54,499 nt of DNA, from NCBI GenBank assembly GCA_017433415.1, contig JAFRHI010000008.1, positions 1 to 54,499 on the forward strand. The letters are read 5' to 3'. A program made the translations under genes and the position numbers. Position 1 is the first letter of the stretch; each line of letters opens with the position of its first letter. Source of the DNA: Bacilli bacterium (GTDB taxonomy: Bacteria > Bacillota_I > Bacilli_A > RF39 > UBA660). Below, one piece after another: positions 17,258 to 53,241 of the stretch. The notes below the pieces were generated by a model that saw nothing but the letters and a program-made list of their open reading frames with translations, did no database searches and was not told the origin of the DNA.

Positions 17258-19816
17258 TTATTCATCTCCTTTATCGTTTTCTTCTTCTTTTCTTTCTTTT
17301 TCTTTGTTAGCTGCTACTGTTCCAGCTACTCCAGCCACTCCAGCAGCTAAACCTATTGCTCCAGGAACAATATAATCACTTATTCCGGCTCCACCAGCAA
17401 TTGTAGTATTTGGTATTGGTGCATATTCGCTTGTTGGCGTTGGAGTTGTTGGTGTTGGTTCTGGTACTACTGGTGTTGGTTCTGGTACCACCGGTGTTGG
17501 TTCTGGTACCACCGGTGTTGGTTCTGGTACCACTGGTGTTGGTTCTGGTACCACTGGTGTTGGATCTGTTGGTGGTGGCACTGGTGTTGGTTCTGGTATC
17601 GGTGGATCTGGTGGTGGATATATAATTGGATCAATTGTTTGTGGATCTGGTGTTGTTGGTGGTTCTACTATAGGTATAGGATCAGGTATTTCTGGATGTT
17701 CTAATATACTAGTAGTTGCTTGTTCAGGAACCTTAGCATGTGGTGGTGGTATTATAACAATATCTTTAGATGTAGGTAGAACTGCTGTTTTTCCTGGTGG
17801 TAATGCAAGTGGTTCTTCTGTTACTGGTAATTCTCCTTTTGTTCCTACTTTTCCTTCTATTGCTATCGGTGGCTCTTTTGGTGGAATTTCTGTTGTTGTT
17901 CCTACTTTTCCTTCTATTGCTATCGGTGGCTCTTTTGGTGGAATTTCTGTTGTTGTTCCTACTTTTCCTTCTATTGCTATTGGCTTTTCCGTTGGCGGTA
18001 ATTCTGTCCTTGCTTGCGTACTTACCTCTCCTGGTAACTCTGGTACTTTTTCTCCTGGATTTAGTTCTGCTGGGTTTGTTTTTGGAGTAGCACCTGAGTC
18101 GACTGTTCCACTTGCTTTTGCTCCTGGTTCTGCTGTTGTTGCTGTTGGCTCTACTTTCGGTCCAGCATTTGCTTCTGTTGGTCCTGGTTTTGGAGTAGCA
18201 CCTGATTCAGCTGTTGCACCTGGTTTTGCTCCTGGTTCTGCTGTTGTTGCTGTTGGCTCTACTTTCGGTCCAGCATTTGCTTCTGTTGGTCCTGGTTTTG
18301 GAGTGGCACCTGAATCAGCTGTTCCACTTGCTTTTGCTCCTGGTTCTGCTGTTGTTGCTGTTGGTTCTGTCTTTGGAGCTGTATTTGTTTCAGCTGTGCC
18401 TGTTTTTGGAGTGGCACCTGACTCAAATGTTTCATTGGCTTTTCCTGCTGTTTCGGCTGTGCTTGCTTTTGGCTCTGTTTTTACACTTGTTTTTGTTTCT
18501 GACCCAACATTTACCCCCTTAGCTTTTTCTAATGCTTCTCGTGCTGCTCTTACTTCTGGATTGGTATCAGGATGAATATTTTTAGCAGCTTGTTTATATT
18601 GTTCCTTAGTAATTTTTCCATCAGTATAATCTTTTTGTAATTTAGCAAAGTCATCATTTGCTTTTTTAAACGCAGCATCATAATTTTCTTGTGCTGCTTT
18701 TACAGGATCACTTGCAGCTTTACCTTCATTAAATGTCGTATCGGCTGTACCTTTTGCCTTTGATGCTGCTTCTCCAGCACTTTCTGCTCCAGCTCTAGCG
18801 CCTGCTTCTCCGGCACTTTCTGCTCCAGCTCTTGCTCCGGCTTCTGCAGCACCATCTGCTGCTCCTCCAGCTGCTCCAGTTCCTTCTGGACCTGTTGGGC
18901 CCTTTGGTCCAACTCCTTCCGGTTCTACAGGAGCGCCTCCTTCTGGACCTACAGGTCCGGTGTTGCCTTTTAACTTTCTAAATACTGCTGCCGCACCTCT
19001 AAATGCGTAATTAAGTACTACTACTGAAGCGGCTGATATTGCTGCTGTTTTTACTCCATAGCCAAATGCTTGGTTATACTCCATTCCGCCTTGTAATCCA
19101 GCTTGAGTACCTGTTCCAAGTCCTCCAACTGCTGCAACCGCAACACCTGCTTTTAATGATCCTATTGCTGCTGTTGCTCCGGCTGCCGCTCCGGCTCCAC
19201 TGAGAGCTCCTACTGCTGCTCCTCCAGCGGCTAATGCTGCAGTATATCCGGCGACTGTACCTATTCCTTTAAATATTTTGGCACCAACACTTTGGCTACC
19301 CATGTAACTATATTTTTCTATATTTTGCCATTTTGTTGCAAAGGCATTTTTGAAATAATCTCCAACATGATTTTTCTCTACAAATTGGCCAATTTTTTCT
19401 TGACCTTTTTTAGAGAACAATCCAACCACAAATCCCACAGCAGAGGCAAATCCATCTACTATTTCTTCTCCAGCTGTTAATACTCCTTCTGTTAGTTTTA
19501 AGCTTGCCATTTGATGTGTTGCGAAAAGTCTTTTTAAAAGACCAGCCTTATCAACATCTTGGTTATAGGATTTAATCATTTCAACGCGCTCTTCAATTGA
19601 TTTCTCTACTTCGTTTATTACTTCTTCACAAGTTGCGCCCATTCCACTTGCTTTTGCAACTGCTGAGTAATTAACATATTCAATTCCTCTGGCACTAGCT
19701 ATAGTTTGACAAGCGGCATTTATTCTACTATCAACGTCTGCTAATTCTCTTTTTGCTGCTTCTAATTCCTGTATTGCATCATTAACTAATGTTGCATCAT
19801 AATTTAATTTTGCCAT
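17258..19816 (-). CDS. Large repeat-rich protein with helical N-terminus, type VII-cargo-like
   Basis: The 852-residue protein has four regions. An N-terminal helical part (about 1-120) is reminiscent of WXG/LXG-type cargo heads but has no WxG. An Ala/Gly-rich hydrophobic stretch (about 180-275) comes next. A long low-complexity region (about 285-790) follows, with nested tandem repeats (short collagen-like GPxGP, GARAGAESAGEA, a 36-residue unit, a 19-residue unit and EPTPVVP). A last membrane segment (about 815-835) ends in a charged KE-rich tail. No catalytic domain and no LPxTG motif are visible. The neighbours (small helical protein before, DUF4176 protein after) suggest an exported, perhaps T7SS-linked, surface protein, but no EssC/YukA machinery is in the window. 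Confidence 0.6.
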   Translation of the reverse strand: MAKLNYDATLVNDAIQELEAAKRELADVDSRINAACQTIASARGIEYVNYSAVAKASGMGATCEEVINEVEKSIEERVEMIKSYNQDVDKAGLLKRLFATHQMASLKLTEGVLTAGEEIVDGFASAVGFVVGLFSKKGQEKIGQFVEKNHVGDYFKNAFATKWQNIEKYSYMGSQSVGAKIFKGIGTVAGYTAALAAGGAAVGALSGAGAAAGATAAIGSLKAGVAVAAVGGLGTGTQAGLQGGMEYNQAFGYGVKTAAISAASVVVLNYAFRGAAAVFRKLKGNTGPVGPEGGAPVEPEGVGPKGPTGPEGTGAAGGAADGAAEAGARAGAESAGEAGARAGAESAGEAASKAKGTADTTFNEGKAASDPVKAAQENYDAAFKKANDDFAKLQKDYTDGKITKEQYKQAAKNIHPDTNPEVRAAREALEKAKGVNVGSETKTSVKTEPKASTAETAGKANETFESGATPKTGTAETNTAPKTEPTATTAEPGAKASGTADSGATPKPGPTEANAGPKVEPTATTAEPGAKPGATAESGATPKPGPTEANAGPKVEPTATTAEPGAKASGTVDSGATPKTNPAELNPGEKVPELPGEVSTQARTELPPTEKPIAIEGKVGTTTEIPPKEPPIAIEGKVGTTTEIPPKEPPIAIEGKVGTKGELPVTEEPLALPPGKTAVLPTSKDIVIIPPPHAKVPEQATTSILEHPEIPDPIPIVEPPTTPDPQTIDPIIYPPPDPPIPEPTPVPPPTDPTPVVPEPTPVVPEPTPVVPEPTPVVPEPTPVVPEPTPTTPTPTSEYAPIPNTTIAGGAGISDYIVPGAIGLAAGVAGVAGTVAANKEKERKEEENDKGDE
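17457..17561 (-). repeat. Five 21-bp tandem units encoding EPTPVVP
   Basis: Five adjacent 21-base copies differ only at synonymous positions. They encode a proline-rich stalk of the 852-residue protein and are prone to copy-number change. Confidence 0.95.
17841..18000 (-). repeat. Three 57-bp tandem units (PPIAIEGKVGTTTEI)
   Basis: Copies start at 17841, 17898 and 17955. The first two are almost identical; the third diverges at its end. They encode a 19-residue repeat. Confidence 0.92.
18070..18450 (-). repeat. About three and a half 108-bp units (TAEPGAK/GPTEANAGPKVEPTAT)
   Basis: A 36-residue repeat is rich in Ala, Pro, Thr and Glu. Two central copies are nearly identical and the outer ones degenerate. 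Confidence 0.9.
18765..18845 (-). repeat. Two 36-bp units encoding GARAGAESAGEA
   Basis: A short alanine/glycine-rich duplication follows the collagen-like GPxGP patch in the protein. Confidence 0.8.
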
Positions 19817-26400: not shown

Positions 26401-29400
26401 TAAAACAGGATCAATGTTGTCTCCGGAATAATTTGTTAGATTGCTGTTAAGAGCTGCAGCAGTAGTAATATTTTTATTACGTCCAATAAAATTTGATCTT
26501 TCTGTTTCATAACTGTATTCTGTTTGCGGTTCATCAATTAACAGCCTAGTTACCATGTAGTTATTTACAGCAGCTTCTCCACGTCCTTTTCTTTTAGCAA
26601 TTAAGCTATTTGTTTCCTTGTCATATTCAGTAGAAATAAACATACTATTAAATACTTTATGACTGACGTCATCCATATTATCAGAAAGAATTGGTTCAGT
26701 GTAACTTGTTAATTCCAATTTTTTATCAAATTCACCTTCATTTTTCAAGGTTATCTTTCTGATCTCAGCATGATGTCCTTTACAGACAACAATTTCTGTT
26801 TTAGTAGAAATAGATGCGTCTCTTCTTAAAAATTTAATTTTATCTGAAGCAAATACTACTTCATATTTATCTGGTTTTTCATTAATTGGAGCATAAGTGT
26901 TACTCCATATTTTATTATTTTCTAAGTCTTTTATAAATAAGAAAATACCATAATCTATTTCTGTAACTTTACGATATCTATTTAGCTGTAAGGTACGATA
27001 TCTTGAGAAACTATTACCACGATCATTCATAAATAATGAATATTTTCGGTTTGAAAGAACAGACATTTCAGGCATGTATGAAATATGATCAAATGCTCTA
27101 ATATCATTTTCAATAACTTCTTTTTTATAATTGTATTTCTTGTATTTTGCCATTTTCATATCAATGCTTGTTTTAACTTGAACTTTTTCTTTTAATAGTA
27201 TCTCAAATGTACGGACATTGACATTTTCATGGAATAATCTTTTTATTACTCCTGATTTTAAATAGTTTGTTATACCTACTAAGCTCATTCCTTGATGATG
27301 GGCAAAATATGCTCTAACTGCTTCTTTACTATCATAGTCATATGCTTCATATAAACCATACATTGAACACATGTCTAAATCTTTGAATTTTTTAATATTT
27401 TCAGAAACATCTTCTGGGAATAATTCAAGAGCCATTAATGAAGAATATGGCGATAATACTATTCTATTTTCTTTATCTTCTTTAGCTTTCAAGTATGGCG
27501 TTGAAAATGCTTTATACTTATAGTTTAGAGAATTATCTAATTCACTATATGCAGATTCTGAAATACCCCAAGGTAATTTATGAGAAATTTTATTAATATA
27601 TTCTTTTTGACATAAATAAGCAAAATTATATGATTCATCTAATAGAGTATTTGGATAATTTTTCATAAATAATAATGGCATGTAATATTCAAAAGAAGTT
27701 CCACTCCATGATATTAATCCTTTACGTCCTTTGTAAGTTGTTAGTGATTTATCTAAACTAAACCAATGCTTATTGGGAACGTCTCCTAGACAGATTGCTA
27801 AGTAACTAGTTAAGCGAGATTCACTAGCAAATTTGTTATAGTTATAAATTGAAAGTTTTCCTTCATTTTCATCATAACCAATACTGAATACATCTTTTTT
27901 AGTATATAATTTTTTAAAATTAGCATTTTTGATTAATTTATCACACATTTTTACTGATTCAAACATTTCATTTTCATTTAAGAATTCTCTGGCAACAACA
28001 ATACAAGCAATTAAATTTCCAGAATCTACTGTTGAAACAAAATTTGGATATAGAACTTTTTTAGTTCTTATATCATACCAGTTATATAGATGACCATGCC
28101 ATTTTTCTAAAGACTCAACACTTTCTAAAATATTGTCTAAAAGTGTAACCGCTTGTTGGAGTTCTATAAATCCTAATTCATAGGCACTTATTACACTAGT
28201 TAATGAAAAGCCAATGGCAGTTGGTGAAGTACGAAAATCTAATTTTTCTTCTCTGTTTTCTTGATAGTTATCAGGAATAAGGTAATTATATTCTGGTTTT
28301 AAATTTTCTTCAAAATAAGTCCAAGTTCTTTCTGCTAATTCTTTTAATTCTAGGACTTTCTTTTCTTTTAATTCAACTTGATGATGATCAATATCTTTAC
28401 TAACTAGATATAAAATGAATGGAGCACTTAAAAATATAAATGCTAATAATAACCCTAAATAGTTATTTGTTAAAAAAGCAATTATGCTAAATACCACGGC
28501 GGTTAAAATATTAAAGCTAAAGTTTTTTAGATAATTTTTTAAATTGCCATTAACAGTTTTAGCAACTTCTTCAGCTGTAATCCAGTTAAGAAGATTTTTG
28601 TGACTAAATAACAATCTATATAATGTTCTGAAAAAAGCATCCATATAAAGTCTAGTATAATATGGGATGGTTGCAAAAACGATATATGCTCTTAATAAAA
28701 GACTTCTACCACCATAATAGAGATTTTTATAATATACATTTTTATGTTCTTTACTCTTTCTAGATACATTTCTTCTTAAGAAAAACAATATTGAAATAGC
28801 TATTTCTAAAACAACGAACAAAATCCAAATTATTGACAAATTTGTAGTTCCTGTAAATGCTAATAATAGTATTAATAGAAGCATAGGATTTAAAAACATT
28901 CTAACTATATTATCTAAAATTTTGAATTTACCTAGCAAATTGATTGGATTTTTAACGCGCTTACGATTTTTACTTGGGACTTTGTTAAACAACCAACCGA
29001 TGATTTGAGTATCTCCTCTAGCCCATCTATGCTGACGAGTTACATCTACTAAAAATTTTGATGGAAAATCATCTATAAGCTCAATATCAGATACAAAACC
29101 ACAACGAATGTAATTACCTTCTAGCAAGTCATGGGATAAAATTAGATTATCTGGAAAGGCATCAGCAAGAACAGTATTAAACACCTCTAAGTCATATATT
29201 CCTTTACCAATAAAACTACCCTCATTAAATGAATCTTGATAAAAATTAGGTATGATTGCTGAATAAGTATCAAAACCACCTATACCGGCAAATATCTGGC
29301 TATATAAACTTTTGTTAGTAGCTTCAATATCAACATTTACTCGTGGTTGCATTAAACCATAACCACTAATAACTTTAGTTTTATTATTGTTTAAAACTGG

Positions 29401-31146: not shown

Positions 31147-32769
31147 TTAGGCATTTACTTTATTATAATGAACAAATACTCCAACAATTCCTAGTAATAT
31201 TGTTCCTAATACAGCTAATACTAAATTAGTTGAATCTGATCCAGTATCTGGAACTGGGACTATTTGTGCTTCACATTGATCTTTATATGCAACTTCTGTT
31301 ACTTCTTTACCATCTTGACCATAGTATTTACCATCAACAATTTCACATACATGAACACATTCATTTAAATATTCTTCTTCTGAAACTTCTGTTCCGTTAG
31401 AACCAAAATATTTATTATTAATGAATTCACAAACATGTTTTTCACATTGTACTGTATATTCATCATATGTTACTTCACTACCATCTTTTCCGAAATAGCT
31501 ATCACCAACTTTTTCGCAAGTATGTTTGAAACATTCTTTTTCATAAACTGATTTTTCTACTTCGAAACCATTTTTTCCAAAATATTTATCACCTATTTTT
31601 TCACAAACATGTTCATTACATTCTAGATCATATTGATCAGCTTTAACAACATTTCCATTTTTTCCAAAATAAGTGTTTCCTACTTTTTCACAACTATGTT
31701 TTTCACATTCAATTGAAAATTCTTCTTTAGATTTAAGAATTCTACCATCTTTTCCAAAGTATGTATTTCCTACAACTTCACAAGTATGTTTTTCACATTG
31801 AATTGAATATGTTGTCTTATCAGTTATTTTTCCATCTTTGTCATAATAGTGATTGTTGTAGTATTCACATTTATGAACACATTGACGTTCATATTCTGCT
31901 TTGTCAACTACTTTACCACTCTTGTCATAGTATTTACCATTAGCAATTTCACAACTTCTTTTAACTGGAGTTACTGATAAGCTTACACTTGTTGTTACAG
32001 TTTTTGGTTCTTCTACTATAACAACTAAATCTTGCCATTTACTATCTGATGTAACATATCTTTCTACTGTTGGTACATTACCAGTTACTTTGGCATTAAC
32101 TTTAAATGTTTTTGCTGATGTTACATTAGCTGCTGGTACCATTACATAAAATTTAGAGCCATTAGCAAATGTTGTTTGGGCATTATTGTTTGCATCTACT
32201 ATTTTAGTACCACTTGGGGCACCATCTAAACTTACTGTAGCATTTCCAGCATTAGATGCACTAACTGTAATTACACCTGATTTATAGTAATTACCATCAC
32301 TAGTTTCAGATAAGTTTGTGCTACTAGCATTAAGTTTTACACTTGGTTGTTTACCAGTGTAATTCTTATTGTTAGCTGCTGTTTTAGCTAAAGCTTTAGC
32401 TTGATTACTTACATCATATTTTTTGTAAGTTTCAGGCATATAATTATCAGTATATACCCATAAAGCTAATTGAGTTTTTAAGTATTCTGCATCTGATTCA
32501 CCAGTATTGTCTAGTAAATAAAGTATTGCACCATCTGTTTCTTTCTTTTTGAAAGTTAATGTTGTTCCTTGGGCAGCACCTGTTTTACTAGGTGTTATAC
32601 AGTAAGCATATCCTTTAGTAGTATGGAATTTTGCTTCTTTTCTTGTTCCTGTATAAATGTAGGTCTTCTTGTCAATGGTCATTGTTGATTGAGCACTAAC
32701 ACTTATTCCTGTTAAAGCAATAAGAGCTATTATTACCATTGCGGTAATTTTCTTGAAATGTTTTTTCAT
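31147..32769 (-). CDS. Sortase-anchored thioester-domain (TQxA) surface protein with Cys repeats
   Basis: The 540-residue protein has a signal peptide (about 1-26, cleavage near SVSA-Q). A thioester domain follows, with Cys57 in GYAYCITP and Gln100 in LKTQLALWVYT, the Cys/TQxA pair that forms an internal thioester in Gram-positive adhesins. An Ig-like beta region (about 140-265) precedes eight repeats of about 29 residues (273-499), each Cys-Glu-x4-x-YFGKDG-x-V-x5-Y-x2-x-Cys. A sorting signal closes it: VPDTG (506-510), a hydrophobic stretch (515-533) and a short tail. It is predicted to be wall-attached and to bind a target covalently by analogy with TED proteins. The ribosome site is GGGGG. 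Confidence 0.85.
   Translation of the reverse strand: MKKHFKKITAMVIIALIALTGISVSAQSTMTIDKKTYIYTGTRKEAKFHTTKGYAYCITPSKTGAAQGTTLTFKKKETDGAILYLLDNTGESDAEYLKTQLALWVYTDNYMPETYKKYDVSNQAKALAKTAANNKNYTGKQPSVKLNASSTNLSETSDGNYYKSGVITVSASNAGNATVSLDGAPSGTKIVDANNNAQTTFANGSKFYVMVPAANVTSAKTFKVNAKVTGNVPTVERYVTSDSKWQDLVVIVEEPKTVTTSVSLSVTPVKRSCEIANGKYYDKSGKVVDKAEYERQCVHKCEYYNNHYYDKDGKITDKTTYSIQCEKHTCEVVGNTYFGKDGRILKSKEEFSIECEKHSCEKVGNTYFGKNGNVVKADQYDLECNEHVCEKIGDKYFGKNGFEVEKSVYEKECFKHTCEKVGDSYFGKDGSEVTYDEYTVQCEKHVCEFINNKYFGSNGTEVSEEEYLNECVHVCEIVDGKYYGQDGKEVTEVAYKDQCEAQIVPVPDTGSDSTNLVLAVLGTILLGIVGVFVHYNKVNA
31273..31953 (-). repeat. Eight degenerate Cys-pair repeats in the surface protein
   Basis: Eight units of 84-90 bases encode paired cysteines (C273, C297/C301, C325/C330, C354/C360, C384/C389, C413/C418, C442/C447, C471/C475 and C499) around a YFGKDG-type core. 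The regular spacing suggests one disulfide per unit in an extended stalk. Confidence 0.9.
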
Positions 32770-41404: not shown

Positions 41405-41415
41405 AAATGGAGCGA
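41405..41415. other. Candidate attR: copy of the tRNA-Gly 3' end
   Basis: AAATGGAGCGA is identical and in the same orientation as 53164-53174, which spans the 3' end of tRNA-Gly. A loose dyad (AACTTT/AAAGTT, 41417-41454) adjoins it inside the element. Confidence 0.6.
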
Positions 41416-41477
41416 TAACTTTACTTATATTCGAAAAATTATACTCCCAAAGTTGTTTGATTAAATCAACTAAATAA

Positions 41478-41506
41478 ATTATATAAGATTTATCATTAAA
41501 AATCAA
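41478..41506 (-). promoter_or_regulatory. Consensus promoter firing outward through the attR-like site
   Basis: TTGATT (41501-41506), 17-base spacer, TATAAT (41478-41483) on the minus strand. Transcription from about 41471 would end at the 41371-41396 terminator, giving an RNA of about 100 bases with no protein frame. Confidence 0.65.
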
Positions 41507-41571
41507 TGGTTCTATGGTAAATTCAATAAAAATATAGTATAATTTTATTAGAAATTTTCGGGAGGTTTATA

Positions 41572-42156
41572 ATGGACTTAAAGACTACAATATTTAGTAA
41601 AATATTAAATATGAATAAAAGAAAATTAGGAGTTAGTGTTATTATTGCATTTGTTTCAATATTAATATTATTTCCATTTATTGATACTAATTTTTTCTAT
41701 GCTAATAGAATAAAAAGTAGAATTGATATTTTACAGAAGATTACTGAATTAGATATGGACAAGATAAATCAAGATAAGAATTTAGCGAAAGAATATGAAA
41801 GAATTGTAAAAGAAATAAATGAATCCGATAGTAATTATATTAATAAAGTTTTAAATAATAATAAAAATGCCCATACCATTGGTAAGTTTATAAGTGGTGG
41901 AATTTTATGGTGGTTATTAGGAATTATAGTTCTATTCTTTTATAATGTATTTAATAAAGAAGATAATAAAAAAGGTAAAAATTGGGGAACAAGAATTGCA
42001 GGATTTATTTTATGTGCAATTATAGGTGGACTTATAGGCCTTATTTGCTCAATTATACCAACGATATTCAATATTTGGGTTAATTATATAATAATACCTA
42101 TTTTAGTTCTTGTACTAATGATTTTATTGCTATACAAATCTTCATCTAATAATTAG
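41572..42156 (+). CDS. Membrane protein, first gene of the cargo operon
   Basis: The 194-residue protein has hydrophobic segments at about 20-38, 107-123, 140-158 and 165-188. A charged, probably coiled loop of about 65 residues lies between the first two (RIKSRIDILQKITELDMDKI). No family is recognised. A GGGAGG site lies upstream, with a TATAAT about 28 bases before the ATG but only a poor -35. The next gene starts 11 bases after its stop, so they form one operon. Confidence 0.65.
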   Translation: MDLKTTIFSKILNMNKRKLGVSVIIAFVSILILFPFIDTNFFYANRIKSRIDILQKITELDMDKINQDKNLAKEYERIVKEINESDSNYINKVLNNNKNAHTIGKFISGGILWWLLGIIVLFFYNVFNKEDNKKGKNWGTRIAGFILCAIIGGLIGLICSIIPTIFNIWVNYIIIPILVLVLMILLLYKSSSNN

Positions 42157-42167
42157 GAGGCGTTGAT

Positions 42168-43079
42168 ATGAAAGTATTAAGTTTAACAGAACCTTATGCA
42201 ACTCTAATAAAAGAAAATAAGAAATTAGTTGAAACACGAAGTTGGAAAACTGATTATAGAGGCGAATTATATATTCATGCTAGTGCTACAAGAATTCCAA
42301 AAGAATGGAAAGAAAACAAAGAATTAATGGCATTAGTAGATGATAAATCATTAAACTTTGGAAATATTATTTGTAAATGCAAATTAGTTGACTGCATTTA
42401 TATGACAAAAGAGTATGTAGAAAATATGAAAATTAATAATTATCAAGAATATATTTGTGGTGTATATGAAGAAAGTAGATATGCTTGGGTTTTAGAAAAT
42501 GTAACACCATTAAAAGAACCAATAAAAGCTAAAGGACAACTTAATATTTGGAATTATTATGATGATTTAGAAATTATGGATTTAATGGAAGATATAGAGT
42601 ATGGTTGGTTAGATAAGTATAATAAGAAACATACAATTGTTGATGAAACATTTTCAAATGATTATATGTTACAATCGCCAAGTGAAATAATATCTAATAA
42701 AGTTGGTGTATGCTGGGATCAAGTGGAACTTGAAAGAAATTATTTTAAAGGAAATGATTGGAATATAAAAACATATTTTATAGTACATTACGATGGTGAT
42801 AGATGTCCAACACATACTTTTTTAACTTACAAAAAGAATAATAAATATTATTGGTTTGAACATTCATGGAAAAGATTTAAAGGAATACATGAATACAATA
42901 GTGAAAAAGATTTATTATTAGATGTTAGAGACAAATTTATTAATTATGAATTAAACAACCAATATGAAAATGAAAATCTAGTATTACACGAATATAAAAA
43001 GCCAAAATATCATATTTCAGTTCAAGATTTCTATAACCATTGTGATAATGGAAAATATATAGATTTTAATAAATTATAG
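42168..43079 (+). CDS. ASCH domain fused to a transglutaminase-like domain
   Basis: The 303-residue protein begins with an ASCH/PUA-like domain (about 1-130): LSLTEPYATLIKENKKLVETRSW, then YRGELYIHASA and later AWVLENVTPLKEPIKAKGQLNIW. ASCH domains are RNA- or nucleotide-binding folds. From about 140 the second half has a Cys-His arrangement: C182 in NKVGVCWDQVELER, H216 in CPTHTFLTYKK and EH at 231-232 in YWFEHSWK, as in papain/transglutaminase-like proteins. Cysteine protease, amidase or transferase chemistry is possible; I cannot choose. The ribosome site is AGGAGG. It is followed at 14 bases by the deformylase-like gene. Confidence 0.7.
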   Translation: MKVLSLTEPYATLIKENKKLVETRSWKTDYRGELYIHASATRIPKEWKENKELMALVDDKSLNFGNIICKCKLVDCIYMTKEYVENMKINNYQEYICGVYEESRYAWVLENVTPLKEPIKAKGQLNIWNYYDDLEIMDLMEDIEYGWLDKYNKKHTIVDETFSNDYMLQSPSEIISNKVGVCWDQVELERNYFKGNDWNIKTYFIVHYDGDRCPTHTFLTYKKNNKYYWFEHSWKRFKGIHEYNSEKDLLLDVRDKFINYELNNQYENENLVLHEYKKPKYHISVQDFYNHCDNGKYIDFNKL

Positions 43080-43093
43080 GAGAAAAAGATAAT

Positions 43094-43693
43094 ATGGAAT
43101 TAAATAGAATAACTATTGAGAATAATGAAGAGTTTTTAAGACAAATTTCAACCGATGTTAATTTTATTAATGATGATTATAGTAAATGGATAGAAGCATT
43201 AAAAGATTATTGTCAAAATAATGCTGTTTATGCTTTAGCTCCTGTTCAAATTGGTATTCCTAAAAGAATGATTTATTTTAGAAATACCACATCTGATATG
43301 ACTAAAAACAAGGATTCAAATTATGATGAAAGTACAGTTCTTATAAATCCTGTTATAATTGAAGCTAAAGGACATACTAGATTTATTGAAAGATGTGCAA
43401 GTTGTCTTGATTATGTTGCTACTGTTGATAGACCATATTCAGTTGAAGCAGAATACTACGATGTTAATGGCAATAAAGTACATGAGACTTTTGAAGGATT
43501 TAAGGCAACAGTATTTAGTCACGAGTATGATCATTTAAATGGTATCTTGCATATTGATTTATCAGATGATGTTAGAGAAATGACTTGGGAAGAAACAAAA
43601 ACATATAGAGAAGAACATCCTTATGAAGTGTTATCAAAAGATGATGAATTTGATTATGGTTCAAGAGAGATAAGAATTAAAAAGACAATTTAA
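43094..43693 (+). CDS. Divergent peptide deformylase-like metalloenzyme
   Basis: The 199-residue protein has the zinc/iron site HEYDH (143-147) intact. Motif 1 is ALAPVQIG (Gln52), a variant of the usual GxGLAAPQ. Motif 2 is ERCAS with Cys101 instead of EGCLS. Peptide deformylase removes the formyl group from N-terminal Met. As a mobile-element copy it may give resistance to deformylase inhibitors or act on special peptides; both are inference. It is the last gene of the cargo operon and is convergent with the relaxase gene. Confidence 0.78.
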   Translation: MELNRITIENNEEFLRQISTDVNFINDDYSKWIEALKDYCQNNAVYALAPVQIGIPKRMIYFRNTTSDMTKNKDSNYDESTVLINPVIIEAKGHTRFIERCASCLDYVATVDRPYSVEAEYYDVNGNKVHETFEGFKATVFSHEYDHLNGILHIDLSDDVREMTWEETKTYREEHPYEVLSKDDEFDYGSREIRIKKTI

Positions 43694-43721
43694 GTCACAT
43701 AGACCTAGAATTGTCTTTTTC
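43680..43721. terminator. Bidirectional terminator between deformylase-like and relaxase genes
   Basis: A 12-bp AAAAAGACAATT/AATTGTCTTTTT stem with an 18-base loop lies between convergent genes. Confidence 0.75.
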
Positions 43722-45002
43722 TTTTTGAATATCCTTATCAAAATTATTAAGGTTATTTTGTATGCCTTCGGCTCTTTTTGTTATTTCTTTACAATATTTA
43801 TCGTACTTATAAAGTTTTTTAATTTTAGGTTGTATATCATTTATTTCGGCAAGTATTTCATTTTGTTTATCTTCAGTTTTTGCTCTATGGTATCTTTTCC
43901 AAAGATTTTCTCTTTTACCTTTTAACTCACTTAATTCATCAGAGTTATTTTTAGCAAAGTTATCTAAATCATCTTTCGTTACAATATTATTCTCGTGCAT
44001 AAATCTAACTTGTTGTGAAGTTTGCTCTAATTTGTAAACCTCTTTTCTAATAGAGTATGGAAGATATTGTTTAGGATGGTTCTTTGGGAATACTCCTAGT
44101 AGATAACAATAGTATAAATATAATCCATATATTCCTTTATGAGGTTTATTAGTCCTAGAATATTCTTCAAAGATAGATTTTTGTGGCATAGGTCTAAATA
44201 CTATTTGTTTTGATAAATATAATCGTTGGTTTAGTCTTTCTTTTGAATATTCTTCACCAAATACATTTTCTATTCTAACTTTATCTTCACCATCTCTATA
44301 AATAGTTATTACACCATTACGAGAATAAACTTTATAACCTAGTGATTTCATTCTTTCAAATAATTGTTTTAAAGTAACTGAATAACTAATAACATTGTCT
44401 AAATCTTCTTTAAGAGTTTTGTAATATTCATCATTTGAAATACTTTTAGTATAAGTCTTTTTATAAAACTTATCTTCATCTAAAACAGATAGTCCATATT
44501 CAGAACATAGTGAATCAGAAATGTGTCTTATCTTTGATATATTGGTTAGATTGTTATTATATTTCTTACCACTTTTAAAAGAAACAGAGTTAATTATGAA
44601 ATGGTTGTGAATATGATTAGTATTTTGATGTGTTGCAACAACCACTTCATAATCTTTAAACATTTCTTCTGCAAACTTAACACCAATCTCATGAGCAATA
44701 TCTGGAGTAACTTCGCCTTCTTTAAATGACTGGTAACCATGATAAGCAAGAACTCCGTCTTTCTTTTTAAATCTTTCTTTAGTGAACTCCATATCATCAC
44801 AAGGATTATCTTCATCACAATTTAAGCAACTTACATAACAAACTTTTTCTTGTTTAAAATTATAATCTTTAATAGGTTCTTCTAAATAACTATATGACTC
44901 TCTATTACCATAATCTTTATTAAGAGTTTTTTCAGGGTTGATGATATAATTTATAGACTGCTTTAAATTATTCTTAATACTCCAAATTGATGTTGTCGCC
45001 AT
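43695..45002 (-). CDS. MOBP-type relaxase (mobilisation nuclease)
   Basis: The 435-residue protein has an N-terminal relaxase domain (about 1-180) with the HUH-type motif ATHQNTNHIHNHFIINS (His 125, 130, 132, 134). An early catalytic Tyr (YII) near 19 and a Cys-rich insertion C-x4-C (56-68) precede it. The rest is a helical C-terminal region (about 180-435), ending in coiled coil. Relaxases nick oriT and pilot single-stranded DNA during conjugation. No type IV secretion genes are present, so the element would be mobilised by another one's machinery. The start has AAAGGA upstream; the nearby 45003-45064 is a candidate oriT. Confidence 0.85.
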   Translation of the reverse strand: MATTSIWSIKNNLKQSINYIINPEKTLNKDYGNRESYSYLEEPIKDYNFKQEKVCYVSCLNCDEDNPCDDMEFTKERFKKKDGVLAYHGYQSFKEGEVTPDIAHEIGVKFAEEMFKDYEVVVATHQNTNHIHNHFIINSVSFKSGKKYNNNLTNISKIRHISDSLCSEYGLSVLDEDKFYKKTYTKSISNDEYYKTLKEDLDNVISYSVTLKQLFERMKSLGYKVYSRNGVITIYRDGEDKVRIENVFGEEYSKERLNQRLYLSKQIVFRPMPQKSIFEEYSRTNKPHKGIYGLYLYYCYLLGVFPKNHPKQYLPYSIRKEVYKLEQTSQQVRFMHENNIVTKDDLDNFAKNNSDELSELKGKRENLWKRYHRAKTEDKQNEILAEINDIQPKIKKLYKYDKYCKEITKRAEGIQNNLNNFDKDIQKEKDNSRSM

Positions 45003-45064
45003 ATAGGTTTATCCTTTCTTTTGGAGTGGTGGGAGTAATACCACCTTGCTTGCTTATGACAACG
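45003..45064. other. Candidate oriT region upstream of the relaxase
   Basis: A short non-coding gap with an inverted repeat GGTGG/CCACC around TGGGAGTAATA, followed by CTTGCTTGC. The site next to relaxases is often oriT; no nick site is identified. Confidence 0.35.
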
Positions 45065-45418
45065 TCACACATAAACTAACTCCTTTAAGATAATATCTTC
45101 AGCAGTATTTTTATAATTATTCATCATTTTTACCCATTCAATTTGATTATTTTCTTTGCTTTTTTCAGATAGTTTTTCATCATTCTTAATATAATTATCC
45201 ATTATAGTTTTTAATCTTTCTTCACATTCTTTACTGACTGAAAGAAGATGATTTGTTAGTTCATTCTTCATTAAAAGTGCCTGATATAATCCTCTTTTGT
45301 GCTCCTTAATATAGTTTAATCGCAAGTAACCATACTTATTTATTTCTCCATAATTTTGATTTTCTATTACCAAATTAGGTAATAAATAATCTCCTTTTTT
45401 AACATATTCAATATTCAT
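45065..45418 (-). CDS. tnpV: TnpV-family transposon protein
   Basis: The 117-residue protein has YLRLNYIKEHKRGLYQALLMKNELTNHL, the TnpV core, then an acidic helix and NNQIEWVKMMNNYKNTAEDIILKEL. TnpV was named in Tn4451-type mobilizable transposons and recurs beside serine recombinases; its role is unknown. It lies 62 bases upstream of the relaxase gene and on the same strand. The ribosome site is GAAAGGA. Confidence 0.85.
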   Translation of the reverse strand: MNIEYVKKGDYLLPNLVIENQNYGEINKYGYLRLNYIKEHKRGLYQALLMKNELTNHLLSVSKECEERLKTIMDNYIKNDEKLSEKSKENNQIEWVKMMNNYKNTAEDIILKELVYV

Positions 45419-45436
45419 AATTTAATCAAATCCTTT

Positions 45437-45688
45437 CTAATTTTCTAATAATTTATTTGTTTTGTAGCTTATAATTCCATATTTATCTTTGACATTATCT
45501 ACTGTAATAGGGAACTTTTCTTTAGGTGAAATTGCTACAAATCTTATAATTTTTTCATTATCTTTTGGTTGATATTCTAAAATAACTTCATTAGTTTTTT
45601 CATCAATTGTTTCATACATTTCATAAAAAGATGTTTCAAAGTGTTCATTCATTTTAGATAAATACTTATCTAATTGTTCTTCATTCAT
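45437..45688 (-). CDS. Small element protein of unknown function
   Basis: The ATG at 45688 with AGGTGG just upstream gives about 83 residues: a helical N-terminus (MNEEQLDKYLSKMNEHFETSFYEMY), then beta-rich (VILEYQPKDNEKIIRFVAI). No family is recognised. The same frame stays open upstream to the recombinase stop at 45788-45790, so this stretch could also be the 3' part of a longer recombinase frame. TnpV follows 19 bases later. Confidence 0.55.
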   Translation of the reverse strand: MNEEQLDKYLSKMNEHFETSFYEMYETIDEKTNEVILEYQPKDNEKIIRFVAISPKEKFPITVDNVKDKYGIISYKTNKLLEN

Positions 45689-45787
45689 TCTGCCACCTTT
45701 AATAGTTTTTTCTACATTATCAACCATTACAGGTACTGCTACATCAAAGATACCTGCATCATAAAACTTTACTAATTGTTTTATAAA

Positions 45788-47341
<1,554 letters not shown>

Positions 47342-47397
47342 TTATTTATACGACAAAAACAACCAATATTGTGGGAGTATATAAACTCACCAATTCA

Positions 47398-47670
47398 TTA
47401 ATGCCTTGCTATGTACTCTGATAATTCAGACAATGGGATTTTCTTCTTAAGATTCCCTATATAAAAATGTTTCTGTTCATTGAAGAATAAGTATAACTTA
47501 TCTCCAATAATAACCTTATGTGGTTCTACATACGCTAGATTAGTATGTTCCACAATCCTTAAGTATCCTTCAATTATTTGATAGGACTTCTTATTGAATT
47601 TGCAAGACCAATTAATTTTGGCTTTGAGTTCATCACTCATATTGATTTTCTTTTTTACGATATTAATCAT
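47398..47670 (-). CDS. Small protein paired with recombinase A
   Basis: The 90-residue protein shares with the 94-residue protein at 52795-53076 the order [LM]S-x-[DE]LK-x-KI[ND]W, then NLAYV[ED]PHKV, LFFN and LSEL. So they are paralogues, both just upstream of a large serine recombinase. It has no signal or membrane segment and no known motif. A regulator or directionality factor is inferred only from position. The ribosome site is AAAGGGTGTGATG. Two terminators bracket it. Confidence 0.7.
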   Translation of the reverse strand: MINIVKKKINMSDELKAKINWSCKFNKKSYQIIEGYLRIVEHTNLAYVEPHKVIIGDKLYLFFNEQKHFYIGNLKKKIPLSELSEYIARH

Positions 47671-47702
47671 ACCACATCACACCCTTTCTTCGCAATAGCA
47701 AC

Positions 47703-47725
47703 AAAAAAATCAACTTGCGTTGATT
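47703..47725 (-). terminator. Terminator in the leader of the 90-residue gene
   Basis: An AATCAAC/GTTGATT stem with loop TTGC and a T run on the minus strand, upstream of the small gene. It corresponds to 53101-53127 in element B. Confidence 0.7.
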
Positions 47726-47737
47726 TAATCATTAACA

Positions 47738-47750
47738 TCGCTTGGTGCGA
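47738..47750 (-). ncRNA. Conserved leader hairpin, copy A
   Basis: TCGC-5-GCGA, flanked by AAAATCG on the minus strand. Copy B at 53141-53153 is TCGG-5-CCGA. The fourth pair differs in both partners, so the stem is kept (compensatory change). Confidence 0.55.
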
Positions 47751-48025
47751 CGATTTTATCTTTTGGAGCAATTGTGTATCTCGTTTGAGAAACAATTACC
47801 GACAAATGTAATGAGATAAAACTCAATTACATACTAAATATATCACGTTTTAGGGAAAGAGTAAATAACTTGAAAATGATATTTTGATAAAATTGATAAA
47901 ATAGTGAGTGGGACATTGATTTTTAAAGTGTTAATTTGATAAGGATTTAATCCCACATCTAATCCCACTAAGAAGTCATTATAAAAAAAGGAAATTAACA
48001 ATACATAATCCCACAATAGTGGGAC

Positions 48026-48051
48026 AATTTTGCATGTGCAAAATAAGTTTG
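48026..48051 (+). repeat. Outer inverted repeat, left arm (26 bp)
   Basis: 25 of 26 bases match the complement of 48747-48772. The arm itself holds the near-palindrome TTTTGCA-TG-TGCAAAA. Confidence 0.9.
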
Positions 48052-48101
48052 ATATCACATAGAAGTATTATGCAATAAGGCCTTGTTTAATGTGTTGATA
48101 T

Positions 48102-48120
48102 CAATTACTTATGCTCTTGC
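48102..48120 (+). repeat. Inner inverted repeat, left arm (19 bp)
   Basis: 17 of 19 bases, including a perfect 13 (CTTATGCTCTTGC), match the complement of 48679-48697. Confidence 0.85.
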
Positions 48121-48197
48121 AAAATTATTCAATAAATTACATAATTTGTGGGATTATATGTCCCATTTGTGGGATTCTACAAAAACTATAAAATTAG

Positions 48198-48226
48198 TTG
48201 CAATAAATAAGTTTTTAGTATATAAT
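48198..48226 (+). promoter_or_regulatory. Promoter of the 104-residue gene
   Basis: TTGCAA, 17-base spacer, TATAAT, about 30 bases before the ATG. Confidence 0.75.
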
Positions 48227-48256
48227 AATCAATTGTCTTTGAAGGAGGTATAAACA

Positions 48257-48571
48257 ATGGAAAAAATAATTCGTTGTACAAGAATTGGTGTTGATTGTGT
48301 TGCTAATGATCCAGTAGATGTTCGTTGTGGTGGACCAGAGTATTTAGGTTTTGATTTTAATGTTCAAAAAGAACAAGCTGAAGAAATGAAAAAGTTTATA
48401 AGAGAAGCTCTTAATAGTTTTAACGTTCCAGTAGCCGCAATATATAGTTATGGTGAAATTGATTTAAATGAAGAAAAAGTATGGACAAAAGAAAGAATTG
48501 TAGCTGCTATAAGTAAAGATGCCAATTATTTAATAAGTGAAGCAAGTAGAAATTATTCGAGAAGAAGATAA
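48257..48571 (+). CDS. 104-residue protein of unknown function within nested inverted repeats
   Basis: It starts IIRCTRIGVDCVANDPVDVRCGGPEYLGFDFNV, a beta-rich opening with three Cys. A helix (QAEEMKKFIREALNSF) and a strand-helix end with a basic tail (NYSRRR) follow. There is no signal or membrane segment, and I do not recognise the family. It has the best ribosome site in the region (GAAGGAGG), its own consensus promoter and its own terminator. So it is a real, independently expressed gene, on the opposite strand to its neighbours. Confidence 0.75.
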   Translation: MEKIIRCTRIGVDCVANDPVDVRCGGPEYLGFDFNVQKEQAEEMKKFIREALNSFNVPVAAIYSYGEIDLNEEKVWTKERIVAAISKDANYLISEASRNYSRRR

Positions 48572-48599
48572 CAATAAACAGGATTTTCCTGTTTTTTTA
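48571..48599 (+). terminator. Terminator of the 104-residue gene
   Basis: An AACAGG/CCTGTT stem with a T run. Confidence 0.8.
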
Positions 48600-48609
48600 A
48601 TGTTGCCAT

Positions 48610-48651
48610 TTTGGTTGAAAAATGACCATGATTTGGTTGTATTTCGACCAT
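48610..48651. repeat. Two direct repeats TTTGGTTG-N6-GACCAT, 22-bp period
   Basis: Units at 48610-48629 and 48632-48651. ATGGTC appears again inverted at 48784-48789. The spacing of about two helical turns suggests protein-binding sites. Confidence 0.6.
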
Positions 48652-48678
48652 AATTTTAATTTTTTTGTATAACAAAAA

Positions 48679-48697
48679 GCAAGAGCATAAGAGATTG
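48679..48697 (-). repeat. Inner inverted repeat, right arm
   Basis: Complement of 48102-48120 (perfect 13-base core GCAAGAGCATAAG). Confidence 0.85.
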
Positions 48698-48749
48698 TCC
48701 CCTAAAACTATTAAAACCTAGATAAACTCTAGGTATTTAATAGGGACAA
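48695..48749. other. Long interrupted stem-loop
   Basis: TTGTCCC (48695-48701) pairs with GGGACAA (48743-48749), ATTAAA with TTTAAT and ACCTAGA with TCTAGGT, around a five-base loop. One side bulges by eight bases. Either strand could fold. Confidence 0.7.
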
Positions 48750-48772
48750 ACTTATTTTGCACTTGCAAAATT
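48747..48772 (-). repeat. Outer inverted repeat, right arm (26 bp)
   Basis: Complement of 48026-48051 with one mismatch. It contains TTTTGCA-CT-TGCAAAA. Confidence 0.9.
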
Positions 48773-48803
48773 TAACCATAAAGATGGTCGTAATAATAGA
48801 AGA

Positions 48804-48834
48804 AACCCTTATATTATAAGGTTTTTTTATGGTA
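48804..48834 (+). terminator. Plus-strand terminator in non-coding DNA
   Basis: A CCTTATA-T-TATAAGG stem with seven T. No plus-strand gene ends here, so it may close an RNA crossing 48600-48800. Confidence 0.6.
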
Positions 48835-48949
48835 GAAATTATGGATGATTTTGAAATCATTCTTAGTTTTCATTATATTCTTTTTATTAATGATAAATTA
48901 AATAAATAATTTATAATAATGAATACAAATCCACTTATAAAATAGTAAA

Positions 48950-49963
48950 TTATTTATAGATAGAAACAACTCCCTCTAATTTAATAGATGATACAAATAA
49001 CGTTTCTTTATCATTTTTTTGCATTAATTCAATGTTTAATTCTGCTCCCATATTTTCCAAAAGTTCATATGCAAAAGCCAATCCTATTCCTGAACCTAAA
49101 TTTGTAGCATTATTTCCGCGGACACCTTTTTGAATCAGTTTATTTCCATCAGTTTCATTAATTTTTTCACTAATATTACTAATCTTGATAATTGAATGCT
49201 CAGTGCTTTCATCGAAAGTTATTTCTATTGTACTATCTGGCTTTGCATATTTTATTGCATTTTCCATCAATATAAATAATGATAAATATAGAGATTTAGT
49301 AATATTAAATGAATTTTGCTGTTTACTACTTATGTTTACTTTTATTCCTTTTTGCCTAGCTTTATATCTCAAAATATAATTTAATTTTGCAACAATTGGA
49401 TGAAGTTTTTGTTCCTTTTCGATTATGTCAGTTAAATCAACTTTACCATATAATATATCTAGTCTAAAATTAATTAATTCATACAATGATATAAGTGACA
49501 TTTCGTTAGAAGTTAATTCATTATCGCCTTTTTCTTCTTTAAATTCATCAATCATTGAATTAAAGTAAGAAGCCATATTTCTCAAATCATGTACCGTTTC
49601 TTTATATCTTTCTAGAGTCATATCTCTTTCAATGGATTTTTTTACCAAAATTAATGCTTGCTCGGTAGTAAACTTCACGCCGTGTTTTAACTCATATTCA
49701 AAATTATTTCTCGTTTTTCCATTAATATTTTCACTGATGATTATGGAAGTTAAGATATTACCTCTATGTACAATAGTTGATAGACCATATGGACATGAAT
49801 ATGTTCCGTCTTTTCCTGTATCGATATTTTCATAATATTTGGAACATTTTTTATTAGGATTACCTAAACATTTTTCGCAAAATAAATACTTTGGGTATAC
49901 ATAACCATCTAATAGTTTTTTATATTTTTTATCATATATTGGAAATATGTTATTTTGTAACAC
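48950..49963 (-). CDS. Soluble histidine kinase with Cys-rich N-terminal domain
   Basis: The 337-residue protein has no membrane segment. The N-terminal domain (about 20-100) holds C29-x2-C32-x7-C40-x16-C57 followed by PYGLSTIVHRGN, a pattern recalling PocR-type sensory domains. The dimerisation helix has His125 in ETVHDLRNMAS. The ATPase has the N-box LMENAIKYA (N235), then NLGSGIGLAFAYELL as G-box. It would phosphorylate the receiver protein encoded just upstream. The start is GTG, inside the last codons of the receiver gene (14-base overlap), so expression is coupled. The signal is unknown; metal or Fe-S binding by the cysteines is inference. Confidence 0.85.
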   Translation of the reverse strand: MLQNNIFPIYDKKYKKLLDGYVYPKYLFCEKCLGNPNKKCSKYYENIDTGKDGTYSCPYGLSTIVHRGNILTSIIISENINGKTRNNFEYELKHGVKFTTEQALILVKKSIERDMTLERYKETVHDLRNMASYFNSMIDEFKEEKGDNELTSNEMSLISLYELINFRLDILYGKVDLTDIIEKEQKLHPIVAKLNYILRYKARQKGIKVNISSKQQNSFNITKSLYLSLFILMENAIKYAKPDSTIEITFDESTEHSIIKISNISEKINETDGNKLIQKGVRGNNATNLGSGIGLAFAYELLENMGAELNIELMQKNDKETLFVSSIKLEGVVSIYK

Positions 49964-50648
49964 ACATTATCACCACATCTTTCATTACATCAAAAACATA
50001 AGGAAGTATTTTTTTCATTATTTCGCTTTTTTCTTTTAAACTTTTTTGGCAATATTTTTTTATATCAGAAGTATAATCTTTTCCTTCAAGAAATGAACGA
50101 ACAAAGAAATCTTCGAATACTGCAATATTTTCTGTTGGTATTTTATTAGATTCTAATATTTTTTTAATGCTGTCCCACTTGTATTTAGGATTACTTATAG
50201 TAGAAATATATTGATCCAATTTTTCTGATAATTGATTACTATTTAAATTCTTAATGATAGTTGCATCAACAGAACTATAATATGGATAAAAATCAAGAGA
50301 CTGATCTAAAGCACTAAATATTATTACAAACTTATCAGGATACATTTCCTTAATTTTTTTTGCTAGTGCTGCACCTTGAAAATATGGATCTATTTCCTTT
50401 GCTACTCCATTAATGTCACAAAAAATAATATCGTAGGCACTATATTCTTCCATAGTTGTATAATTAAATTTTACATCAATATCCTTAAAACCTAATTTGT
50501 TTAGTCCTTCTTTTTGAGCAAAACCTTCATCATCAATTATTAAAATTTTATATTTTTTTCTATCTGATTCAATTGTTGGTTCTAATTTTATATCAATAAT
50601 ATCATTTATCGTTCTTAATTTAGATTTTTTATTTATTAGAAAATTCAT
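49950..50648 (-). CDS. Receiver-domain protein without DNA-binding output
   Basis: The 232-residue protein has a receiver domain (about 33-145) with acidic pair D39/D40 in ILIIDDEG, phospho-acceptor D78 in IIFCDING, Ser112 in IIFSALD and Lys133 in IIKNL. All needed residues are present, so it should be phosphorylated by the kinase encoded downstream. The C-terminal 85 residues are helical and match no HTH, GGDEF, HD or methylesterase output I know. The N-terminal 30 residues (NKKSKLRTINDIIDIKLEP) may be another short region. The ribosome site is AGGAGG. A new output or a protein-binding role is inferred. Confidence 0.82.
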   Translation of the reverse strand: MNFLINKKSKLRTINDIIDIKLEPTIESDRKKYKILIIDDEGFAQKEGLNKLGFKDIDVKFNYTTMEEYSAYDIIFCDINGVAKEIDPYFQGAALAKKIKEMYPDKFVIIFSALDQSLDFYPYYSSVDATIIKNLNSNQLSEKLDQYISTISNPKYKWDSIKKILESNKIPTENIAVFEDFFVRSFLEGKDYTSDIKKYCQKSLKEKSEIMKKILPYVFDVMKDVVIMCVTK

Positions 50649-50756
50649 ATGTACCTCCTGATAAAAATTCCAATACCATTATACCATACAAATATAAATG
50701 TTTATCTCAATTTTATACATTTAGCTATTAATGATAAAAAACAGCTAATTTTATTG

Positions 50757-52653
<1,897 letters not shown>

Positions 52654-52794
52654 ATTAAATTCAATATTATAAATTTCGGGTAAATTGTGTTTTATTTTCA
52701 TAGATGTACCTCCATTTCTAGAGTTACCTCTTTCATTGGTTATTTATAATATCACTTTTTAGAATTTTGTCAATTCCCTATTGAGGGAATAGTA
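52654..52794. other. Non-coding leader between small gene B and recombinase B
   Basis: Apart from the terminator at its left edge I see no gene here. It contains GAGGTACATCTATG and GGAGGT-like purine runs on the minus strand, possibly a leader peptide, but no convincing frame. Confidence 0.3.
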
Positions 52795-53076
52795 TTAAGA
52801 ACATTTAGCTAGTTTAAAGAATTTTTCTAGTTCAGATAAATTATGTTTATCATTTAGAGTATTAACATAGAAAGTATCAACACCATTGAAGAACAAGAAT
52901 GTATAATTATTAATTTTAACTTTATGTGGATCTACATAAGCTAGATTACTAGGCTCTAATCTAATTAAATGACCTTTCTCAAGAATTATTGAAGTAGAAG
53001 TATAATTCTTAGCCCAATCAATCTTTTTCTTTAAGTCAGGGCTTAAATCAAGTTTTTCTTTAATAATATTTAACAT
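52795..53076 (-). CDS. Small protein paired with recombinase B
   Basis: About 93 residues: LSPDLKKKIDWAKNYTS, a middle with LEPSNLAYVDPHKVKI, TFLFFNGVDTFYV and NLSELEKFFKL. It is a paralogue of the 90-residue protein next to recombinase A, with NLAYV[ED]PHKV the best-kept core. I chose the ATG at 53076, aligned with the paralogue, with AAAGGTTGTGATG upstream; an in-frame start eight codons earlier lies before the ribosome site. A recombination directionality factor or regulator is possible but unproven. Confidence 0.7.
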   Translation of the reverse strand: MLNIIKEKLDLSPDLKKKIDWAKNYTSTSIILEKGHLIRLEPSNLAYVDPHKVKINNYTFLFFNGVDTFYVNTLNDKHNLSELEKFFKLAKCS

Positions 53077-53100
53077 ATCATCACAACCTTTCTTAGACAC

Positions 53101-53127
53101 AAAAAAACTTAATTATTTCTAATTAAG
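53101..53127 (-). terminator. Terminator after tRNA-Gly, before small gene B
   Basis: A CTTAATT/AATTAAG stem with loop ATTTCT and seven T on the minus strand. It would serve as the terminator of the interrupted tRNA operon and as an attenuator for the element genes. Confidence 0.7.
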
Positions 53128-53140
53128 CTTTATCTCAACA

Positions 53141-53153
53141 TCGGTTGTTCCGA
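53141..53153 (-). ncRNA. Conserved leader hairpin, copy B
   Basis: TCGG-5-CCGA, matching copy A (TCGC-5-GCGA) with a compensatory pair. It lies 11 bases inside the tRNA-Gly att-like site. Confidence 0.55.
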
Positions 53154-53163
53154 CGATTTTTAC

Positions 53164-53174
53164 AAATGGAGCGA
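53164..53174. other. Candidate attL at the tRNA-Gly 3' end
   Basis: AAATGGAGCGA, spanning the CCA end and discriminator of tRNA-Gly, is repeated at 41405-41415. Confidence 0.6.
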
Positions 53175-53241
53175 ACGAGGGGAATCGAACCCCCATCACA
53201 GCCTTGGCAAGGCCGTATTCTAACCATTGAACCACGTTCGC
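53167..53241 (-). tRNA. tRNA-Gly(GCC), CCA encoded; probable integration target
   Basis: Acceptor GCGAACG/CGTTCGC, anticodon loop TTGCCAA (GCC), T-loop TTCGATT and an encoded CCA. Intact although its 3' end is the probable insertion site. Confidence 0.95.

Follow-up and report, generated by a model that had tools for sequence, protein, structure and literature searches.

A 104-residue gene bounded on both sides by inverted repeats raises the question of what such repeats are for, and of which DNA around them forms the mobile unit. The locus lies in a 54,499-nucleotide stretch, hereafter the window, from a member of a family of uncultured Bacilli with small genomes. The original prediction described nested inverted repeats and offered three readings: a small non-autonomous mobile cassette, a pair of protein-binding sites, or a substrate of the encoded protein. 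The arms were found where predicted, with outer arms at 48026-48051 and 48747-48772 (26 bp, 96% complementary) and inner arms at 48102-48120 and 48679-48697 (19 bp, 89% complementary, 13 perfect). The best inverted-repeat score in the 2-kb surround was 22, compared to a mean of 12 and a maximum of 17 in 40 dinucleotide shuffles. The repeats are thus real, but "nested" misdescribes them. When both sides were aligned with copies from relatives, the outer and inner arm of each side proved to be parts of a single composite site of ~97 bp, present in two copies in opposite orientation.

Each composite site contains, in order, the palindrome TTTTGCA-NN-TGCAAAA, TAAGTTTG, a hairpin of variable sequence, and CTTATGCTCTT; its 5' part, ahead of the hairpin, reads TTTTGCA-NN-TGCAAAATAAGTTTG. 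The left site (48026-48122, plus strand) has a GATATC hairpin and its CTTATGCTCTT core at 48108-48118, while the right site (48677-48772, minus strand) has a GTCCC hairpin and its core at 48681-48691. These are the two occurrences of CTTATGCTCTT in the window. A covariance model, R1, built from six sites that included both of these, scored them at 94.9 bits (left) and 100 bits (right), with DNA fold z-scores of -4.1 and -6.9, respectively. Across 53 distinct sites, the stem carried 116 double changes versus 34 in shuffles, and the covariation score, from an alignment that was fitted to the structure, was 0.595 compared to 0.215 for shuffled and at most 0.209 for slid alignments. The hairpin is therefore conserved as a structure. 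At many sites there is also a CCTTATAAAATAAGG-like dyad ~50 bp 5' of the palindrome (in the window at 48808-48824, for example), which may form part of the proposed transfer origin described below.

The two sites of the window differ in subtype, as defined by stem and flanking repeat. The left site lies in a subtype I region (47883-48183, plus strand) with GTGGGA repeats in its flanks and a DNA block that is shared, in conserved form, with related elements of genomes G271 and G284. GTGGGA occurs seven times in the 320-bp flank, compared to a mean of 0.03 and a maximum of 1 in 2620 other placements. The right site lies in a subtype II region (48593-48855, minus strand) with ATGGTC/ACCATAA repeats and a block of DNA that G271, G284, and G191 also conserve; its 320-bp flank holds four copies of CCATAA and three of ATGGTC, versus maxima of 3 and 1 elsewhere. 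A chance origin of the sites was excluded by the inverted-repeat shuffles, the flank-repeat counts, and the stem covariation.

The sites are not confined to this locus. Of the 386 genomes of this family searched with a covariance model, 137 yielded the composite site. Within the genome that the window comes from, these two places are the sole exact matches to the 24-base arm pattern, with more divergent whole-site copies at C4:8095 and C20:23196. The exact pattern had no matches in IMG/VR, and a DNA search against plasmids returned weak, chance-like matches at most. The contexts examined fell mainly into two classes, with some loci (e.g., L109, L121, L125, L126, and L129) fitting neither clearly. 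In the first class, which comprises 15 of the examined loci, an M23-peptidase gene stands on one side of the site and small accessory-type (aux) genes, followed by the MobL relaxase gene of a conjugative element, on the other; the site is 5' of the relaxase gene and on the same strand, with VirB4/VirD4 close by in most cases. This is the position of an origin of transfer (oriT). The Pfam MobL match was 1.3e-10 in locus L057, and the window's own genome also has a MobL match, with the C4:8095 site located 1.4 kb 5' of its MobL relaxase gene. Judging mainly from position and gene order, the small genes beside MobL are probably ribbon-helix-helix (RHH) accessory genes. The aux1-position proteins (60-79 residues) of different elements had no convincing mutual similarity by BLASTP, so their accessory role rests on position. 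Loci of the second class yielded no MobL nearby; their site lies beside a large serine recombinase gene, close to its 3' end.

The oriT assignment was also consistent with a comparison to the experimentally mapped oriT of pLS20. The best covariance model match in the whole plasmid, at 27655-27758, fell within the mapped oriT interval (E 0.012, next best 0.67), with a modest score of 22.5 bits, and the 11-mer CTTATGCTCTT is present in this oriT at 27744-27754. The pLS20 sequence bound by Aux1, CAAATAAATCTGGTACCACG (PMC5675868), resembles AAAATAAGTTTGGTACCACT of L058; the relaxases of pLS20 and L057 aligned weakly. Since the published pLS20 nic site (PMC5313138) lies on the template strand at a distance of ~40 bp from CTTATGCTCTT, the nick position in the window sites is uncertain. 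In the staphylococcal plasmid pWBG749, the nic segment CCTTATGCTCTTACGG contains CTTATGCTCTT (PMC4652767). Among the three readings first offered, a pair of protein-binding sites comes closest, as each copy matches a site that a relaxosome would recognize.

Both window sites lie inside a large-serine-recombinase element of ~5.4 kb (element B, 47764-53172), inserted at the 3' end of a tRNA-Gly (GCC) gene (53167-53241, minus strand; ARAGORN, Rfam). In genomes of the same genus, similarity to the window resumes at 53165-53167, the end of the tRNA gene, and L137 and L139 have tRNA-Gly without the element. The left end, TGGAGCAATTGTGTATCTCGTTTGAG, is also found in three other genomes (L096, L097, and L141). 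Element B thus has defined ends at its target, and it encodes its own recombinase (50757-52580, minus strand; Resolvase 2.5e-34, Recombinase 8e-17), preceded by a small ORF (52795-53100, minus strand) whose relatives were found by tblastn beside serine recombinases in L056, L094, L095, L099, and L102. Further cargo includes a histidine-kinase-like gene (48950-49963, minus strand; HATPase_c 1.3e-8) and a response-regulator-like gene (49950-50648, minus strand; weak NCBIfam LytR match, 3e-4). Inspection of the ORFs in 47764-53172 and scans against Pfam and NCBIfam found no relaxase family.

The core TGGAGC is found at 41408, at 47764, and at the tRNA-Gly end at 53167; two elements therefore appear to sit in tandem at this one tRNA-Gly, with the sites in the second. 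The neighbor, element A (41408-47769), has att-like cores at 41408 and 47764, its left end at 41408 being assigned from the 6-mer alone. On the minus strand it encodes its own MobA/VirD2-type relaxase (43695-45002; Pfam Relaxase 4.9e-37), TnpV (45065-45418; Pfam TnpV 2e-30), a serine recombinase (45788-47326; Pfam Resolvase 1.3e-33), and a small ORF (47398-47670). Elsewhere in the window, positions 17258-19816 contain an 852-residue ORF with proline-rich PVVPEPT repeats and a GC content much above its surroundings, and 31147-32769 encodes a predicted surface protein of 540 residues with repeated CEK..KVGNTYFGKNG-like units.

Pairing of the sites recurs in other genomes. The initial tally of adjacent pairs less than 6 kb apart gave nine in convergent orientation plus a single divergent one. 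Because G248 and G127 seem to share one element, nine distinct pairs remain. All nine were on opposite strands, with a probability of ~0.002 under random, independent orientation, a figure that should be interpreted with caution given that the pairs are few, partly related by descent, and in several cases share recombinase ancestry. The members of the inspected pairs differ in subtype, less clearly so in G144. Three same-strand pairs also occur, spaced 8-18 kb apart and possibly spanning more than one element. S. aureus plasmids that possess a second oriT invariably have it on the strand opposite the first, mostly with a different subtype (PMC4652767). Our data suggest that chromosomal elements of a distant group follow this rule as well.

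The gene between the sites (48257-48571, plus strand) has the features originally predicted for it: an AAGGAGG ribosome site, a terminator-like stem at 48576-48594, and a promoter-like TTGCAA-17-TATAAT at 48198-48226, such promoter matches being about as frequent in shuffles. It is oriented against its neighbors, with adjacent genes between 43.7 and 53.1 kb on the other strand, and there is no transposase inside the repeats. The 104-residue protein had no Pfam match over the cut-off and no NCBIfam or PADLOC match. Its structure model was confident (pLDDT 93), with no Foldseek match at E<=0.001 and no clear PDB match; the best VIA hit, a PII-like protein with Z 4.3, was not informative. Homologs with 25-62% identity are found in loci that lack the sites, and the sites surround unrelated genes, which contradicts the reading of the repeats as a substrate of the encoded protein. 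Cargo between paired sites ranges over the 104-residue gene, a 124-residue gene, NUDIX, an AAA/HD set, SNF2 with SWIM, a sortase-like gene with a repeat protein, and NERD with two regulators, over inter-site distances of 0.6 to 5 kb. The 104-residue gene looks like one such interchangeable cargo. In one cargo set, at L098 8071-11656, an SNF2-family helicase and a SWIM zinc-finger protein lie between two opposed sites; the helicase matches defense-system helicase models (ZorD, DpdE), though a common helicase domain may be the sole reason.

Recombinases 92-93% identical to that of element B adjoin opposed site pairs in L096 and L097, and the elements of the window, G284, and G271 combine recombinases of this similarity and the same left end with unrelated cargo between the origins. 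One conceivable consequence is that the segment between opposed oriTs serves as a cargo bay, exchanged by the relaxases of different helpers acting at the two origins while the ends and recombinase are kept. The unrelated cargo fits this idea and does not show it, and we regard it as a rather unlikely conjecture.

Collectively, these findings support, with a probability of roughly 85%, a reading in which each composite site is an oriT like those of MobL-type conjugative elements, and element B belongs to the integrative mobilizable elements that lack a relaxase; its two oriT mimics would match two helpers and would be opposed so that the segment between them survives transfer. We weighed this against three other explanations. 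If the sites were the ends of a small non-autonomous, MITE-like transposon carrying the 104-residue gene, their inverted orientation, short distance, and lack of an internal transposase would be expected. However, single site copies stand before relaxase operons, the two copies here are of different subtype with homology running well outside the arms, and the distance and cargo vary from pair to pair. The flanks inspected had no target duplication and differed on the two sides. This explanation is extremely improbable, and neither cassette-specific ends nor a target duplication was seen for a stand-alone cassette of the kind first proposed; the mobile unit is instead the ~5.4-kb serine-recombinase element.

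Alternatively, the sites could be att-like recombination sites of serine recombinases, with the segment between them inverting. One site is near a serine-recombinase gene in many elements, and the palindrome around a central dinucleotide is reminiscent of sites of this type. The element ends nonetheless map elsewhere, to TGGAGC cores at tRNA-Gly, and the sites are also found in MobL elements without a close serine-recombinase match. In the examined pairs that contain subtype II, it is the recombinase-proximal member, with no flipped arrangement among them, and we consider inversion very improbable. The sites might also be oriT relics of decayed conjugative elements with no present function in element B. 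The window's own genome offers some grounds for this: its C20 copy lies beside a shortened relaxase fragment, and its two MobL-linked sites belong to another subtype, with a TTTCG core and AGGATG repeats, which leaves this incomplete genome with no visible matching helper. Weighing on the oriT-mimic reading itself, no conjugative element was found with exactly the left-site combination, a GATATC stem with GTGGGA repeats; L134 came nearest. Against decay, both sites keep the palindrome, the stem, and CTTATGCTCTT, and the recurrent pairing of different subtypes on opposite strands across several serine-recombinase lineages points to selection, making a relic origin improbable. The C20 locus itself (L106 9197-9742) looks like a decayed relaxase module, with a shortened aux/MobL fragment behind its oriT-like site.

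Under the preferred reading of two oriT mimics in a mobilizable element, the element B recombinase would excise the element from tRNA-Gly as a circle. When a matching conjugative element is present in the cell, its RHH accessory proteins and MobL relaxase could bind one of the copies, and the relaxase would nick it near CTTATGCTCTT, after which the circle may be transferred through the type IV pore of the helper. Two recognition subtypes would give access to two kinds of helper, and the 104-residue gene would be cargo in the slot between the origins. With the origins on opposite strands, relaxase-mediated joining, which would delete what lies between, should not take place. A relaxase-mediated deletion between same-strand oriTs was proposed for S. 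aureus, where one such deletion has been observed (PMC4652767), and the same logic may explain the window pair. The two opposed copies thus probably let a 5.4-kb element without a transfer enzyme ride with either of two helper kinds.

For most bacteria the short oriT motifs are not known, which makes relaxase-less elements difficult to recognize. In this family, a single covariance model detects sites in more than a third of the sampled genomes and ties them to MobL conjugative elements. Since the sites can be separated into subtypes by stem and flanking repeat, the matching of helpers and hitchhikers becomes predictable from sequence and testable.

Dual, opposed oriT mimics are a known arrangement; what differs here is their MobL type and their chromosomal carrier, a serine-recombinase element. 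In pLS20, a MOB_L plasmid of Bacillus subtilis, the gene order is oriT-aux1-aux2-relaxase (PMC5675868; arrangement also in PMC5313138), and the conjugative relatives of our site likewise have the order oriT, RHH genes, MobL relaxase; AATAA..TGGTACCAC and CTTATGCTCTT are common to the pLS20 oriT and our site. Unlike pLS20, which is self-transmissible with one oriT upstream of its relaxase gene, the window has two sites, carried by a small integrated element that encodes no relaxase. Relaxase-less integrative mobilizable elements termed "iOriT" (PMC11389934) are similarly integrated, have their own recombinase, and depend on an oriT alone for transfer, but element B differs in having two oriT subtypes, which form a compact pair in opposed orientation around a variable cargo. 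As cited in PMC11389934, the small E. coli plasmid pBuzz (Moran and Hall 2019) likewise has a pair of inversely oriented oriTs and is mobilized in trans, although it is a Gram-negative plasmid mobilized by a B/O plasmid rather than an integrated element. Another parallel is with the pWBG749-family oriT mimics of S. aureus, which are relaxase-less carriers with two opposite-strand oriTs, usually of different subtypes, and RHH-dependent subtype specificity (PMC4652767, PMC8136818). Those carriers are non-conjugative plasmids, whereas the elements described here are chromosomal serine-recombinase elements that come from uncultured Bacilli and have their own repeats and stems.
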